The position numbers and the translations under genes are program-made. A stretch of 32,461 nucleotides of DNA from Kordia jejudonensis. Lineage in GTDB: Bacteria; Bacteroidota; Bacteroidia; Flavobacteriales; Flavobacteriaceae. Where the stretch lies: positions 1-32,461 of the forward strand of contig NZ_LBMG01000056.1 in the NCBI RefSeq assembly GCF_001005315.1. Direction: 5' to 3'. How positions within the stretch are numbered: the stretch's first letter is position 1; each line of letters begins with the position of its first letter. The notes beneath the pieces are model-generated. The model saw only the letters and a list, made by a program, of their open reading frames with translations, searched no databases and had not been told where the DNA came from. Shown in pieces: positions 17,569-27,929 of this stretch.

Positions 17569-18222
17569 ATGTTTAAAAACACACTCATCTTTATTATGTT
17601 TACTGCAACTTGTTTTGCACAAATTAAAGGTGAAAAAAAGTTACAAGAATGTGAACTTACCTTGAAAGATAGTACAGCCTTTCGCGGATTTTGTAGAATT
17701 GGAAAGGTTGATAAAATTCACTTTTCTATGGAACGCGATAGTACGCCTGATGTTTGGGATTCTAAAGATGTGAAATCAGTTCGTTTTTTCAGAAGTGATT
17801 ATGATCAAGTGTTGGAATATTTTAATCTGCGTAAAAACTCTTTACCTAGACTTCTTGAAATTAAACTCTATGGAGATGTAATGTTGTATGCGCGTACTAA
17901 GTTTCGAATGATCCCAGACAAAACTATTACTGTTTACCCTTCATTACCACCTTTTGGCAAAGAAAATGACCTGCCACAACAAAGAGTCGTATCTTATAAA
18001 AAAGAAGAAGAAGTATCAGCCTATTATTTAAAAAAAGCATCTTCAGATACCTTATTTCCAATTCGTCCGTCATGGACCAACAGAAGATGGAAAAAGGAAA
18101 TGATCGAATTTTTTAAAGATTGTCCGTCACTTGTGGAAGATTTGGAAGCGGATGCATACGATAAGAAATCTATTGCACAATTGGTAGAAGATTACAATTT
18201 GTATTGTACAGAGAATGATTAA
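17569..18222 (+). CDS. Secreted protein of unknown function, paralogue A
   Basis: A 217-aa exported protein of no family I can name. A signal peptide covers about residues 1-18 (FIMFTATCFAQ). The mature part begins with a Cys-led beta segment (CELTLKDSTAFRGF), followed by the motif RDSTPDVWDSKDVKSVRFF, and ends with a basic/aromatic stretch (RRWKKEMIEFFKDCPSLVEDL) and the tail LVEDYNLYCTEND. The next gene encodes a protein with the same sequence of motifs, so the pair arose by tandem duplication. Paired cysteines in the mature part suggest disulfides in the periplasm. Confidence 0.85.
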   Translation: MFKNTLIFIMFTATCFAQIKGEKKLQECELTLKDSTAFRGFCRIGKVDKIHFSMERDSTPDVWDSKDVKSVRFFRSDYDQVLEYFNLRKNSLPRLLEIKLYGDVMLYARTKFRMIPDKTITVYPSLPPFGKENDLPQQRVVSYKKEEEVSAYYLKKASSDTLFPIRPSWTNRRWKKEMIEFFKDCPSLVEDLEADAYDKKSIAQLVEDYNLYCTEND

Positions 18223-18243: not shown

Positions 18244-18837
18244 ATGCTCAAACACGTTATTTTTTTTCTTTGCTTCATCGGAATTGGTTTTAGCCAAAAT
18301 CAAAAATGTGAGTTGATATTTAAAGATGGTACCTCCATTCAAGGATATGGAAGTTTAACCAAAAAAGATAGTATCAAATTTCGAATTGATCGAGAAAGTA
18401 AACCTGATGTTTGGGGAAATGAAAATGTACAACGTATTACGTTTTTTGGATTTGAAAACATGGAAGTAACACTTGAATATGTTAAAGCAAAATGGCAACG
18501 GAAATATGAATTGATGGAAGTTGTGGTAGATGGCAATATAAAACTTTATGCACGTTTTAGTGCCTATTGGACAACTACAACTTTGAATTATGGCTCACGA
18601 AAAGGTGCCAATTACACACCTAGCCAAAAAAATACTGATTTTACACTATTTCTTAAAAAGCCAACGGATGAAAAAGTGATACTAGTTTCCACTGGATTAT
18701 TTAGCGGTTGGAAAAAGAAAATGCTTGCTTATTTTAAAGAGTGTCCTGAAATCACTGAAGGAATTGAGTCTGGAGAATACAAATCGAGCGACATGAAAAA
18801 ACTAGTAGAAGATTATAATATTTATTGTACTGAGTAG
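18244..18837 (+). CDS. Secreted protein of unknown function, paralogue B
   Basis: A 197-aa exported protein, tandem paralogue of the gene 21 bp upstream. A signal peptide covers about residues 1-18 (FLCFIGIGFSQ). Shared landmarks are CELIFKDGTSIQGY, RESKPDVWGNENVQRITFF, GWKKKMLAYFKECPEITEGI and the tail LVEDYNIYCTE. The middle is shorter and differs (a Thr/Asn-rich stretch in place of the Pro-rich stretch of the first copy). The two are probably co-transcribed, and a hairpin terminator shared with the convergent tyrosinase-like gene follows. Function unknown. Confidence 0.85.
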   Translation: MLKHVIFFLCFIGIGFSQNQKCELIFKDGTSIQGYGSLTKKDSIKFRIDRESKPDVWGNENVQRITFFGFENMEVTLEYVKAKWQRKYELMEVVVDGNIKLYARFSAYWTTTTLNYGSRKGANYTPSQKNTDFTLFLKKPTDEKVILVSTGLFSGWKKKMLAYFKECPEITEGIESGEYKSSDMKKLVEDYNIYCTE

Positions 18838-18924: not shown

Positions 18925-19701
18925 TTAGTCTACATAAGTATATCCAAGGTTTTCTGTGTTTAATACATCTGTAGTTTTCAATGTTGTTCCTTCATCATTA
19001 CTAAATGGTTGCAAGCTCGAATTTAAGACCGAATTTGGCATACTTGCAGCTCCAAGATCTTCTCGTGCGGGTTGCTTTTGCCATTGATCCCAAAAACGAT
19101 CTAATTGACAATGTGTAAACCAAAAGATAGGATCATACGCAGTACAGTTTGTATTTGCCGATGAGCCGCCTATATACATGTGACTTTGTACATCTGCTAC
19201 ATAAATTTCTGTCCCAAAAGTAACAAAGTCATCGGCTTCCATTGCTTTATTGGCTGAGATAAATGCTGACTCAAGTAATGTATTATTTGGTGCATCATTT
19301 CTAAAGGTGTATAAAGGAATTTCATATTCAGCTCTGTAAAATGGATTTGACTTCTTTTTACCTTTTTTCTTGGTTTTGTAATACGGATCTGCCAATAACG
19401 GAGGAATACCTTCTTCTCTAGCGGTTTCTGAAGTGTAGTCCCAATATGGCAACGTAATAACTGGTTTTGCATTAGGAACTGCGTCTTGAAGCGCCTTTTC
19501 AAAGTCTGCAAAATACGCTCTTGCCCACGGTAAAAAAAGCATATCATTTCGCATGTAATGCCCATCTTTGATCAAAATTCCTGCTTTTTGTTGATATATG
19601 CGGTTTTTATATAATCTTCTAAATGCCTTTCGCAAGTTTGCTATTTCCTTTTCCGAAAGATCGTATACACTTTTCCGAACGTGAACGGTTTTTTTCTTCA
19701 T
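18925..19701 (-). CDS. Tyrosinase-fold protein with degenerate copper sites
   Basis: A 258-aa protein that aligns along its length with the tyrosinase/polyphenol oxidase central domain: DLSEKEIANLRKAFRRLYK, FLPWARAYFADFEKAL, ITLPYWDYTSE, SHMYIGGSSAN, DPIFWFTHCQLDRFWDQWQ and the closing LGYTYVD. The copper A ligands are missing: the usual WHR is WAR (Ala60), the usual His nine residues earlier is Arg51, and the first His (AGIH) reads AGIL. At copper B, His174 and His197 remain, but the first His is Asp170. There is no signal peptide. By sequence it should not be a normal dinuclear copper oxidase. It might be a pseudoenzyme, a binding protein or a mononuclear metal protein. The frame is intact and full length for the domain. 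Confidence 0.82.
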   Translation of the reverse strand: MKKKTVHVRKSVYDLSEKEIANLRKAFRRLYKNRIYQQKAGILIKDGHYMRNDMLFLPWARAYFADFEKALQDAVPNAKPVITLPYWDYTSETAREEGIPPLLADPYYKTKKKGKKKSNPFYRAEYEIPLYTFRNDAPNNTLLESAFISANKAMEADDFVTFGTEIYVADVQSHMYIGGSSANTNCTAYDPIFWFTHCQLDRFWDQWQKQPAREDLGAASMPNSVLNSSLQPFSNDEGTTLKTTDVLNTENLGYTYVD

Positions 19702-19809: not shown

Positions 19810-19986
19810 CTATTTCTTTCCTCCAGAAACTTCTGGCCAAATAATTGTATCAGGCATTGTTCCTTTTTTTAGCATTTCTTTTGTCAATAGTTGGTGTAAT
19901 TCTTGATGTTTTTTAGCCACAAAAGCTTTCTTTATTGAATACGAAAAAGTGAGGTTTTGGGTTTTGGGAAGTAAAAAATCTAACAT
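19810..19986 (-). CDS. Small ORF, 58 aa, unknown function
   Basis: An open frame of 58 codons, beginning with ATG at 19986 and ending with TAG at 19810, 32 bp downstream of the DUF4136 gene on the same strand. The protein is basic and mostly helical in the middle (AFVAKKHQELHQLLTKEMLK) with a C-terminus GTMPDTIIWPEVSGGKK that looks like ordinary coding sequence, not intergenic DNA. It may be a real small gene or the remaining 3' end of a decayed larger gene. No signal peptide and no recognised family. Confidence 0.4.
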   Translation of the reverse strand: MLDFLLPKTQNLTFSYSIKKAFVAKKHQELHQLLTKEMLKKGTMPDTIIWPEVSGGKK

Positions 19987-20018
19987 CTCAATACTAATAT
20001 CTTAATACTATTTTATCA

Positions 20019-24867: not shown

Positions 24868-24934
24868 CTTATATACTATATTTTGTCATTCCTTCGACTT
24901 GTACTGAGCTTGTCGAAGTAAGGCAGGAATCCAA

Positions 24935-25762
24935 TTGTATCGAGAAATACTTGATTAACTTTACGTAGCAAAGCTGTTCTCGATAGTTTCACTAGGTAGT
25001 TGAAATCAAAATATATTTGATCTTACATAATGCTCAAACTGACAATGATTATCTTTTGCTAGTGTTATGTGATCCTGAATCAAGTTCAGGAGGACGTTTG
25101 TGTAGAAATTTTACATATAAAACACAAAACGTCTTTTCGAGTAGTTTTTCATTGCGTAGCGAGATGAAAAAATTGTATCGAGAAATACTTGATTCTCTTT
25201 ACGTTACGAAGCTGTTCTCGATAGTTTCACTAGGTAGTTGAAATCAAAATATATTTGATCTTACATAATGCTCAAACTAACAATGATTATCTTTTACTAG
25301 TGTTATGTGATCCTGAATCAAGTTCAGGAGGACGTTTGTGTAGAAATTTTACATATAAAACACAAAACGTCTTTTCGAGTAGTTTTTCATTGCGTAGCGA
25401 GATGAAAAAATTGTATCGAGAAATACTTGATTCTCTTTACGTTACGAAGCTGTTCTCGATAGTTTCACTAGGTAGTTGAAATCAAAATATATTTGATCTT
25501 ACATAATGCTCAAACTAACAATGATTATCTTTTACCTAGTGTTATGAGATCTTGAATCAAGTTCAGAGGACGTTTGTGTAGAAAGTTTACATATAAATGC
25601 ACAAAATGTCTTTTCGAGTGGTTTTTTCATTGCGTAGCGAGATGAAAAAATTGTATCGAGAAATACTCGATTAACTTTGCGCTACTTTACTGTTCTCGAA
25701 CTAACAATGATTATCTTTTACCTAGTGTTATGAGATCCTGAATCAAGTTCAGGATGACGTCT
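24935..25762. repeat. Tandem array of hairpin-rich units of about 238 bp
   Basis: Units begin at TTGTATCGAG: about 24935, 25173, 25411 and 25651 (steps of 238, 238 and 240). Three copies are full and the fourth is cut short, with an internal deletion. The stretch 25013-25250 is nearly identical to 25251-25488. Each unit holds several inverted repeats: TATCGAGAA/TTCTCGATA, TTTCA/TGAAA, ATCAAA/TTTGAT, CCTGAA/TTCAGG, GACGTTTGTGT/ACACAAAACGTC (one bulge) and TTTTTCAT/ATGAAAAA. Frames of 74 codons inside the two best copies have no other support. The 24801-25839 gap holds nothing else that I can support apart from the lipA terminator. Confidence 0.9.
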
Positions 25763-25839: not shown

Positions 25840-26517
25840 CTAAATCAACGGAATTTCATTCGGTTCAATATAATCATTTTGAATGGCGTAAATAACCAAA
25901 CCAGCAATGTTACGCGCTTCCGTTTTGATGAAAAGATTACTTTTATGTCCTTCCACAGTTCGTGGTGTAATGAAGAGCTTCTCGCCTATTTCTTTAGCCG
26001 TTTTTTGGAAACAAATAAGTTTTAAGACTTCTATTTCGCGTTCGGTAAGTTTGTTTTTTTCAATTAATGTTGGTTTTGGACTTTTGTGTGATATTTGCTC
26101 ACGCAACACTCCTAACTGATCGTCCATAAAATAAAATCCTTTGTCGTACACTTCTCTCACAATTTCTAGCAATTGTACAGGCGAAATTCCTTTGGGTAAG
26201 AATGCAGAAACGCCCGTTTTTAACATGAATCCCATGAAAGAACGTTTGTAATGTGAAGTCATTAAGATGATTCGAATACTTGGGTAGTTTTGTTTTAAAA
26301 ATTCTGTGACTTCTACGCCATTGATGCCTTTCATATTTAAATCTAAAATAATGACATCTGGCAATGCACTATCCGTTACCAATTTCTCTTTGAGCATTTC
26401 GCCACTATCAGCCGTGTAGCATATTTCTATTCCTTCCTGACTTCCCAAAAAATCTTTTAGTAAAGACACAATTAATGCATCATCATCAACTAAAGCAAGT
26501 GTAATTATATCTTTCAT
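25840..26517 (-). CDS. NarL/FixJ-type response regulator
   Basis: A 225-aa two-component regulator. The receiver domain spans about residues 5-122: acidic pocket VDDDALIV near residues 10-17, phospho-acceptor Asp59 in VIILDLNMKG, and the conserved Ser/Thr and Lys in MTSHYKRS and FLPKGIS. The output is a LuxR-type helix-turn-helix near the C-terminus (LTEREIEVLKLICFQKTAKEIGEKLFITPRTVEGHKSNLF). It is the last gene of a four-gene run; the histidine kinase gene ends 33 bp upstream. The targets are unknown; candidate sites can be sought in the operon's own promoter. Confidence 0.94.
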   Translation of the reverse strand: MKDIITLALVDDDALIVSLLKDFLGSQEGIEICYTADSGEMLKEKLVTDSALPDVIILDLNMKGINGVEVTEFLKQNYPSIRIILMTSHYKRSFMGFMLKTGVSAFLPKGISPVQLLEIVREVYDKGFYFMDDQLGVLREQISHKSPKPTLIEKNKLTEREIEVLKLICFQKTAKEIGEKLFITPRTVEGHKSNLFIKTEARNIAGLVIYAIQNDYIEPNEIPLI

Positions 26518-26550
26518 CTTGGTCTTTTAATCTTTTAATTATTCATTTTT

Positions 26551-27303
26551 TCAATTCTCAAATAGAAACATGTTTGAAGTCCCTTTTCCTAGGTTCGATT
26601 TCACTTTATAATTTCCTCTGAGATATTGTACTCTGGTTTCTATATTTTTGGTTCCTAAACCTTTACTTTGTTGCGAAACATCATATCCTTTTCCATCATC
26701 AATAATACGCAATACCATGTAATTTTTTGTTTGTTTTAGATGAAAAATTACCTCTTCTGCCTCAGCATGTTTTACAATATTGGTAATAATTTCTTGAATG
26801 ATTCGGGTAATTTGCACTTTAAAATCGTCCGTTTCGTTCGTTTCATATCGAATATCATAGATCGCTTTTATTTGAATATGTTGTTCCCAAGGATATAACA
26901 ATTCTTTAATGAGTTCGGGAAGTTTGGTAAATTCAATAAGTGGCGGACTTAAATCGTGCGAGATTCTACGAGCAATTGCAATACTATCATGCAACGCATC
27001 AATGGTTTTTTGATCTTTTTGCGTGATTTCTTGCTCCATTTTAATCGCCGTCAACTTTCCTATCAACGCATCATGAATGTCTGCCGCAATGCGATGACGT
27101 TCTATTTCTTGTGTTTTTATCGTCGTTTCCAGCAAATTTTGTTGGTACGCCAATTGTGTTTTTGCCTCTTTCTCTTTAGCTTTTATAATCTTCTTAAAGA
27201 TAGCGCGCACCAAAAAAATGATTGCTGTTAGTAGCACCACCAAAAATATTCCCACAATAATAATCCAAAGAATTATTGTTTCGGGTTTTTGCCATGCTTC
27301 CAT
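26551..27303 (-). CDS. Sensor histidine kinase (HisKA_3 type) without sensor domain
   Basis: A 250-aa kinase. One membrane segment lies at residues about 10-33. A coiled-coil linker follows, then the NarX/DegS-type dimerisation helix with phospho-acceptor His77 in RIAADIHDALIGKL. The ATPase domain carries the N box (IIQEIITNIVKHAEAEEV), the G1 box (IIDDGKGYDV) and the G2 region (KGLGTKNIETRV). There is no extracellular loop or other input domain, so the signal must come from a partner. The start overlaps the upstream membrane protein gene by 31 bp, which makes that protein the likely partner. Confidence 0.92.
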   Translation of the reverse strand: MEAWQKPETIILWIIIVGIFLVVLLTAIIFLVRAIFKKIIKAKEKEAKTQLAYQQNLLETTIKTQEIERHRIAADIHDALIGKLTAIKMEQEITQKDQKTIDALHDSIAIARRISHDLSPPLIEFTKLPELIKELLYPWEQHIQIKAIYDIRYETNETDDFKVQITRIIQEIITNIVKHAEAEEVIFHLKQTKNYMVLRIIDDGKGYDVSQQSKGLGTKNIETRVQYLRGNYKVKSNLGKGTSNMFLFEN

Positions 27304-27929
27304 ATGAAATAAGTTAGGTACGAATAAAATAATACGAGTAGTAATACATGCGCTACCAACACATATACCGCCAAGTAAAATCCTCCATTAATTAAAAAAT
27401 TAATTGGCAATAGAAATAAAAATTCCAACGCAAAAAAACATAAAACAATACTGTTAAATGAAAAATAGCGTGCTTTTCCTTTGACAAGTTTTAATTCATC
27501 TTGAATCAATTCAAAAAAATACACTAGCGTCATAATCACAATCAACAACGGCGTTAATGCTTTTGCATAGGGTTGAAATAGTTCTACATTGTTTGCATTT
27601 AAATATATTGATTCTATCAATGTATATGATACGCCAATGATTGTTAAAACTCTGATGATTTTTTTCTTTTTACACAAAACATCAAATATTTTAAAAAAAA
27701 TGAGTAGTTCAAGTAAACTGAGTGCTACATATAAAATTAAATTATTATTTAATAGTTCTGCTAAAACTCTAGAGGAAATATCTATTGCCAAGCTTCCTAT
27801 TAAAAAATATACTAATAACTTAGTAACCTTATCTAATTTTTTAAAATAAAAAATACCAACACTCGTACCAATACATAGTACAAGTGGTGATAAATAAGTC
27901 ATTATTTCAGAAAATGTACTAAGTGTCAT
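27273..27929 (-). CDS. Multi-spanning membrane protein of unknown function
   Basis: A 218-aa very hydrophobic protein with six or seven predicted membrane helices and short basic loops (CKKKKIIRV, FIWKHGKNPKQ at the C-terminus). I recognise no family. The gene overlaps the following kinase gene by 31 bp, and the preceding gene ends 2 bp before its start. It may sense a signal in the membrane and pass it to the kinase, in the manner of 7TM sensors fused to kinases in other systems. This is inferred from position only. Confidence 0.8.
   Translation of the reverse strand: MTLSTFSEIMTYLSPLVLCIGTSVGIFYFKKLDKVTKLLVYFLIGSLAIDISSRVLAELLNNNLILYVALSLLELLIFFKIFDVLCKKKKIIRVLTIIGVSYTLIESIYLNANNVELFQPYAKALTPLLIVIMTLVYFFELIQDELKLVKGKARYFSFNSIVLCFFALEFLFLLPINFLINGGFYLAVYVLVAHVLLLVLFYSYLTYFIWKHGKNPKQ

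Follow-up and report, generated by a model that had tools for sequence, protein, structure and literature searches.

A gene on the reverse strand of a 32,461-nucleotide stretch of the Kordia jejudonensis genome (the window; gene at positions 18925–19701) encodes a 258-amino-acid tyrosinase-fold protein in which the copper A (CuA) site has lost all of its histidine ligands and the copper B (CuB) site has kept two of three. The protein belongs to a small clade whose members share these losses, and dN/dS for the gene is about 0.13. Conserved replacements at the active site, together with a neighboring sulfatase gene in some of the genomes, point to a protein that has changed its job rather than to a dead gene. 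The host genome (G000) is of the same genus as K. aestuariivivens (G001) and K. periserrulae (G004).

The tyrosinase fold is retained

The Pfam Tyrosinase model (PF00264) matched the window protein at 85.9 bits (6.5e-24; cut-off, 22.6), placing it in the domain superfamily, and also matched the relatives from a Saprospiraceae MAG (L035; 81.4 bits), K. periserrulae (L036; 90.3 bits) and G1549, a genome of the MAG's family (81.2 bits). Molluscan hemocyanins were the best matches in a sequence search of the PDB, followed by bacterial tyrosinases. An AlphaFold2 model built from 31 aligned sequences had a pLDDT of 85.9 and a pTM of 0.87, and the 50 Foldseek matches listed (TMq 0.57–0.79) were tyrosinases, polyphenol oxidases and hemocyanins, plus 9pgz, a tyrosinase fusion according to the sequence search. 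For the K. periserrulae relative, a second model gave a pLDDT of 81.4 and a pTM of 0.82. Confidence was middling in the loop around H48, with pLDDT values for residues 41–50 and 51–60 of 76 and 84 in the first model and 67 and 79 in the second. The initial annotation had described the tyrosinase fold as intact, a description borne out by the Pfam score, the fold matches and the retained LPYWDY and DPIFW motifs.

The protein was not a member of either NCBIfam family that it resembled, scoring 68.4 bits against a cut-off of 450 for MelC2 (NF047834) and 50.6 bits against a cut-off of 630 for the o-aminophenol oxidases BagH/FevF (NF041220). PADLOC returned zero matches for four proteins, two tyrosinase-like and two sulfatases. 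Judged by its sequence, the window protein is a true tyrosinase-domain protein that lacks the ligand set defining type-3 copper proteins.

Loss of copper ligands

Type-3 sites are described as binding CuA through H-Xn-H-X8-H and CuB through H-X3-H-Xn-H (PMC11608171). Alignment with canonical relatives places the CuA triad of the window protein at L43, R51 and A60, with D170, H174 and H197 as the CuB set; eight residues separate R51 from A60, the spacing expected between HisA2 and HisA3 (PMC11608171). All codons given here lie on the reverse strand. The HisA1 position (L43; 19573–19575) is Leu in all six clade members and His in 28 of 30 canonical rows, the other two having a Gly and a gap. HisA2 is replaced by R51, encoded with N52 and D53 at 19543–19551: five of the six members have Arg there, against His in 29 of 30 canonical rows and Arg in one, while N52 and D53 are invariant in the clade and each occurs in 1 of 29 canonical rows. 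The HisA3 position (A60; 19522–19524), His in every one of the 30 canonical rows, is Ala in four members and Asn in two. At HisB1 the clade has Asp throughout (D170; 19192–19194) and the canonical rows have His (30/30). HisB2 (H174; 19180–19182) and HisB3 (H197; 19111–19113) are kept in all 36 rows.

All six members therefore lack HisA1, HisA2 and HisA3, and all have lost HisB1 while retaining HisB2 and HisB3. Read from the alignment columns alone, D170, H174 and H197 form a 2-His-1-carboxylate pattern at ligand positions, invariant in 6/6. The initial annotation had reported that the CuA histidines were lost and that CuB kept just His174 and His197, with Asp170 in place of the first His, and the alignment confirmed both points. 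Its particular CuA replacements held for L43 throughout the clade; R51, in contrast, is Ala in one member and A60 is Asn in two. Absent from its list were H48, N52, D53, the change at residue 196 and a sulfatase remnant at 19810–19986.

Residue 196, just before HisB3, is Thr in the window protein and Thr, Val or Ser across the clade, and His in 25 of 30 canonical rows. By our own reading it corresponds to the 'seventh' His, which a review places in all structurally known polyphenol oxidases except the insect enzymes and PvdP (PMC11608171). The window protein has four histidines in total (7, 48, 174 and 197), so that beyond H174 and H197 only H7 and H48 are available and a three-His CuA site cannot be assembled from its own residues. 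H48 (19558–19560), which lies in the HisA2 loop, could sit near the CuA site; it is present in all six members and in none of the 27 canonical rows with a residue there.

A small clade shares the losses

The six known members of the clade are the window protein and its relatives in G005 (a Kordia genome), G001 (also recovered as L034), G004 (L036), the Saprospiraceae MAG (L035) and G1549 (L086). The five relatives, three from Kordia and two from genomes of the MAG's family, are 85, 79, 62, 43 and 42% identical to the window protein, and pairwise identity inside the clade goes down to 40%. All six have L43, D170, H174, H197 and either Ala or Asn at position 60.

Members were found by several routes. 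A search of the genus (E ≤ 1e-5) gave matches in 4 of 11 genomes: its own, G005 (85%), G001 (79%) and G004 (42%). A scan of contigs with the patterns GH[YA][MQT][RA]NDM and [IL][TF]LPYW[DN]Y, both drawn from the first four members, yielded 36 loci, among which L034, L035 and L036 belong to the group and the other readable loci have WHR. Since L035 fits only the first pattern, which contains H48, N52 and D53, those residues in L035 cannot count as independent. L086, which matches neither pattern, was recovered by a profile search and the Kordia members by an ordinary protein search; these do count. Thirty of the 36 scan loci (27 of them canonical) entered the alignment with the window protein, from which L041, L051, L064, L065, L067 and L068 are absent.

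Searches of wider samples returned mostly canonical proteins where motifs were read. In the family of the MAG (248 genomes, 1e-10), the seven matches were the MAG itself, G1549 (43%) and five with WHR; in the window's family, 8 of 397 genomes matched (its own, G004 and six with WHR). Matches in 5 of 395 genomes of the phylum sample and 9 of 395 of the class sample were its own and others carrying WHR, with L015 outside that reading. In the order sample, 13 of 395 genomes matched, namely its own and twelve others, whose loci (L015–L033) lie outside the motif reading, and in the order of G1549 (149 genomes) G1549 and G1721 matched, the G1721 locus (L094) not being among those read. Fourteen plasmid records matched, with identity below 60% among the matches listed, and the single matching locus on viral contigs bears the WHR motif.

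In a 36-row tree the six members fell on one side of a branch with support of 100/99, or 98/98 when the twelve ligand-region columns were masked. Of 38 rows chosen, 36 were used, L074 and L083 having failed the motif cut. The L051 row, overlong with a false WAR upstream, entered the tree and the 30-row column table but not the 29-row comparison. The clade divides into two subclades, one of the window protein, G005, G001 and L035 and the other of G004 and G1549. Both contain Kordia as well as the MAG's family, which indicates that the gene moved between lineages or was duplicated early. On this tree, the ligand losses precede the split into two subclades. The sister group is unsure because several canonical rows are long branches.

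The initial annotation had named close homologues with all six histidines as evidence against its view; instead, the five relatives share the losses and form a well-supported clade. A one-off mutation or sequencing error is ruled out by the same losses in five relatives and by a dN/dS of about 0.13, and open frames with dN/dS at 0.13 rule out a pseudogene for the clade.

Among canonical proteins, L073, L079 and L080 are longer (frames of 520–591 amino acids) and have a single His followed by Cys in the HisB3 motif (FWFxHC). They resemble the clade at HisB3 but retain WHR and the other histidines, and are possible relatives of its ancestor.

Selection and newly conserved residues

Pairwise dN/dS (NG86) was 0.131 for window–G005, 0.132 for window–G001 and 0.131 for G005–G001, and the branch values were 0.132 (window), 0.128 (G005) and 0.132 (G001). 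These estimates are confined to the three sequences, as dS to G004 is 1.6–1.9 and to L035 mostly undefined. They give a clear signal of purifying selection on the gene, and they agree with the earlier view that the frame is clean and the gene is kept.

Across the six members 69 of 258 positions are invariant. They include three of the four histidines of the window protein (48, 174 and 197) and four of its 18 Asp residues (53, 170, 190 and 201); D53 and D170 are clade-specific, while D190 and D201 lie within motifs common to nearly all canonical rows. When clade-specific residues were defined as invariant in the six and present in at most 10% of 29 canonical rows, twelve qualified: Y31, L43, G47, H48, N52, D53, F64, L130, T132, R134, D170 and V225. 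Half of these (L43, G47, H48, N52, D53 and D170) map to the former CuA region or to HisB1, and such clustering at the old active site is the pattern that a re-used pocket would show. R134 (19300–19302, reverse strand) ends a conserved L-x-T-x-R stretch (130–134) and is a candidate anion binder.

A sulfatase gene beside the tyrosinase-fold gene

Directly upstream, on the same strand, G005 and G001 each carry a sulfatase gene (579 and 578 codons, ending 206 and 112 bp away, respectively). The G005 protein matches Pfam Sulfatase (PF00884) at 126.9 bits, does not reach the threshold of any NCBIfam sulfatase model that it matched, and is 85% identical to its G001 counterpart. In G1549 a 555-amino-acid sulfatase (96.1 bits) ends 5 bp upstream of the tyrosinase-fold gene. 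The pair thus occurs at three of six loci, on both sides of the deepest split in the clade. Each of five genomes has one or two relatives of the paired sulfatase (E ≤ 1e-30), which puts chance adjacency at the order of one in a thousand per genome (an estimate assuming ~5,000 genes). No signal peptide was evident by eye in the paired proteins.

The paired sulfatases of the two subclades are just 34% identical to each other, and that of G1549 is nearer (48–49%) to stand-alone sulfatases of Kordia and the MAG, in a comparison that excluded the G001 sulfatase because its CTSSR lies outside the C-x-[AP]-[SA]-R filter. The sulfatase partner may have been exchanged, or acquired on two occasions. Neither K. 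periserrulae, where a Usp gene lies on either side, nor the Saprospiraceae MAG, where MFS and HNH genes flank the gene and the contig ends 1.9 kb upstream, has an adjacent sulfatase gene.

What we take to be the formylglycine site reads CTASR in G005 and CSPSR in G1549. At the presumed site in the K. aestuariivivens sulfatase beside the gene (L071:6470–8206) the sequence is CTSSR. A stand-alone sulfatase with a DQER start (L102:6707–8242; also L097, L098, L100, L101 and L105) is found in the window's own genome, G004, G005, G001, G002 and the MAG; in the stretches read, which do not include L105, no tyrosinase-fold gene adjoins it.

The locus in the window

The window preserves a trace of the partner. 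A 58-codon ORF on the reverse strand (19810–19986) matches residues 539–578 of 579 of the G005 sulfatase at 72.5% identity and, by synteny, holds the C-terminal end of the sulfatase that is intact upstream in G005 and G001. It adjoins an 81-bp scar (19937–20017), located between the tyrosinase-fold gene and a DUF4136 gene and delimited by blastn blocks and the G005 genes, where G005 has about 6.7 kb holding two-component genes, a DUF1254/DUF1214 gene and most of the sulfatase. Two further sulfatases, at 40% identity, are present in the window genome. Deletion of the sulfatase next to the window gene implies either that the protein works without its usual neighbor or that it has been recently orphaned.

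Several other features of the locus were observed. Between murB and the tyrosinase-fold gene lie two adjacent forward ORFs (17569–18222 and 18244–18837; 217 and 197 amino acids) with shared repeated stretches and alike ends; the first has no Pfam match and the second a weak one (0.046), and neither has a G005 counterpart in the blastn blocks. A tandem array at 24933–25672 consists of 3.1 copies of a 238-bp unit with 96% matches, and a 52-bp segment of it also has a single match in G005, close to L070:17569. Three genes about 6 kb from the tyrosinase-fold gene (25840–27929; a response regulator, a histidine kinase and one other) have counterparts next to the G005 sulfatase pair (L070:1959–4106), at 42, 35 and 27% identity, respectively. 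The genome also encodes a canonical tyrosinase of 469 amino acids with WPWHR (L104:6295–7704, contig C196). Its N-terminal SRRDFL resembles a Tat signal, and the TSCPTICPQM stretch of the following gene product resembles an SCO1-type copper chaperone.

A proposed one-metal site and its alternatives

We propose that these tyrosinase-fold proteins, which are short and apparently cytosolic, make up a small clade within Bacteroidota that lost the type-3 dicopper center before it split. A single metal ion (Fe, Zn or Cu) would be held in the old CuB half-site by D170, H174 and H197, with H48 and D53 serving as a further ligand, as second shell or as base. The pocket would act on a substrate or product of the adjoining sulfatase, and R134 may hold an anionic group. 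One metal in the half-site is the simplest reading of the loss of HisA1–HisA3, the retention of HisB2 and HisB3, and the Asp at HisB1 in every member. A precedent for a half-filled site is aurone synthase, in which CuA-His-to-Ala mutants are reported to retain a single copper but no diphenolase activity (PMC4364613). Binding of O2 between two coppers would not be expected of such a protein, nor, therefore, would tyrosinase or catechol oxidase activity. We put the chances at about even that the proteins carry one metal on D170, H174 and H197, perhaps with H48 and D53, and work with a cytosolic sulfatase, where we infer both the metal and the chemistry. A more specific version is tentative and rather unlikely: a rebuilt non-copper site (H48 and D53 of the former CuA loop with D170, H174 and H197; mono- or dinuclear) that, with the sulfatase, performs a two-enzyme cytosolic step on an anionic compound, sulfated or of another kind and perhaps aromatic.

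A metal-free pseudoenzyme would explain the loss of four of six copper ligands, the retained fold motifs and the sulfatase adjacency, if the fold were kept for binding or scaffolding, with the sulfatase or the compound it acts on as one example of a partner, and the conserved polar residues lined a ligand pocket. However, no member shows drift at H174 or H197, and HisB1 has become a potential ligand, Asp, in all six, a set not needed without a metal; we regard this alternative as rather unlikely. A further thought, prompted by the 81-bp scar and the sulfatase tail, is that the window gene lost its partner by deletion and is on its way out. Its frame is intact, its branch dN/dS (0.132) compares with 0.128 and 0.132 in the relatives (a recent loss of constraint would not yet be visible), and decay in one genome would be silent on the other five members, so that we consider it improbable.

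Two readings seem to us very improbable. An atypical dicopper oxidase would use H48, a shifted HisA2, with other atoms to hold a second copper; H48 does lie in the HisA2 loop, three residues ahead of the HisA2 position, and some type-3 proteins (beta subclass) are described as placing HisA2 elsewhere (PMC3658974). Against this, HisA1 is Leu in 6/6 and HisA3 is Ala or Asn, the window protein offers only H7 and H48 for a second copper, and altering any copper-holding His in known enzymes is reported to abolish or nearly abolish activity, often with about half of the copper staying (PMC11608171). The position of the gene directly after a sulfatase gene in three genomes would also fit a helper in sulfatase maturation, for example one that oxidizes the active-site Cys to formylglycine or delivers a metal. 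This role is hard to credit because G002, a Kordia genome in which no match to the gene appeared at E ≤ 1e-5, encodes a related sulfatase, and the window genome itself has two other sulfatases; G003, also without the tyrosinase-fold gene, has no related sulfatase at 1e-20. Of the options offered by the initial annotation (a pseudoenzyme, a binding protein or a single-metal site), the last gained from the invariance of D170, H174 and H197 in 6/6, whereas its parts list proved short, omitting H48, N52, D53, R134 and the sulfatase link. The evidence leans toward a changed site plus a link to the sulfatase.

Relation to known proteins

The clade resembles short bacterial tyrosinases that consist of just the central domain, such as Streptomyces MelC2 and Bacillus megaterium TYR, in its PF00264 match, length, four-helix fold, HisB2 and HisB3, and LPYWDY and DPIFW motifs. 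Unlike those enzymes, it lacks HisA1–3 and HisB1, and no caddie gene was seen beside the window gene. Hexamerins and cryptocyanins are copper-free relatives of arthropod hemocyanins that have lost copper ligands, kept the fold and serve as extracellular storage proteins; the present clade differs in lying on another branch and in its sulfatase link. Molluscan hemocyanin functional units were the top PDB matches by both sequence and fold, yet hemocyanins are described as having six copper-binding histidines (PMC3658974), of which the clade keeps two. TYRP1, with two zinc ions, and TYRP2, with zinc (PMC3658974), share the tyrosinase fold and have a metal other than copper. Their zinc is described as sitting on conserved His sets (PMC3658974), whereas the clade has lost four of the six and does not have the zinc-type ligand set.

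Among the titles and abstracts retrieved from an open-licence library, none described a CuA-less bacterial tyrosinase or a sulfatase–tyrosinase pair. A clade that has dropped four ligands, is under strong selection and has fixed new polar residues in the position of the old site would represent a natural re-use of an oxygen-activating copper fold. It opens to testing what the tyrosinase fold can do with a single metal or without any, and the neighboring sulfatase provides a handle on the substrate.
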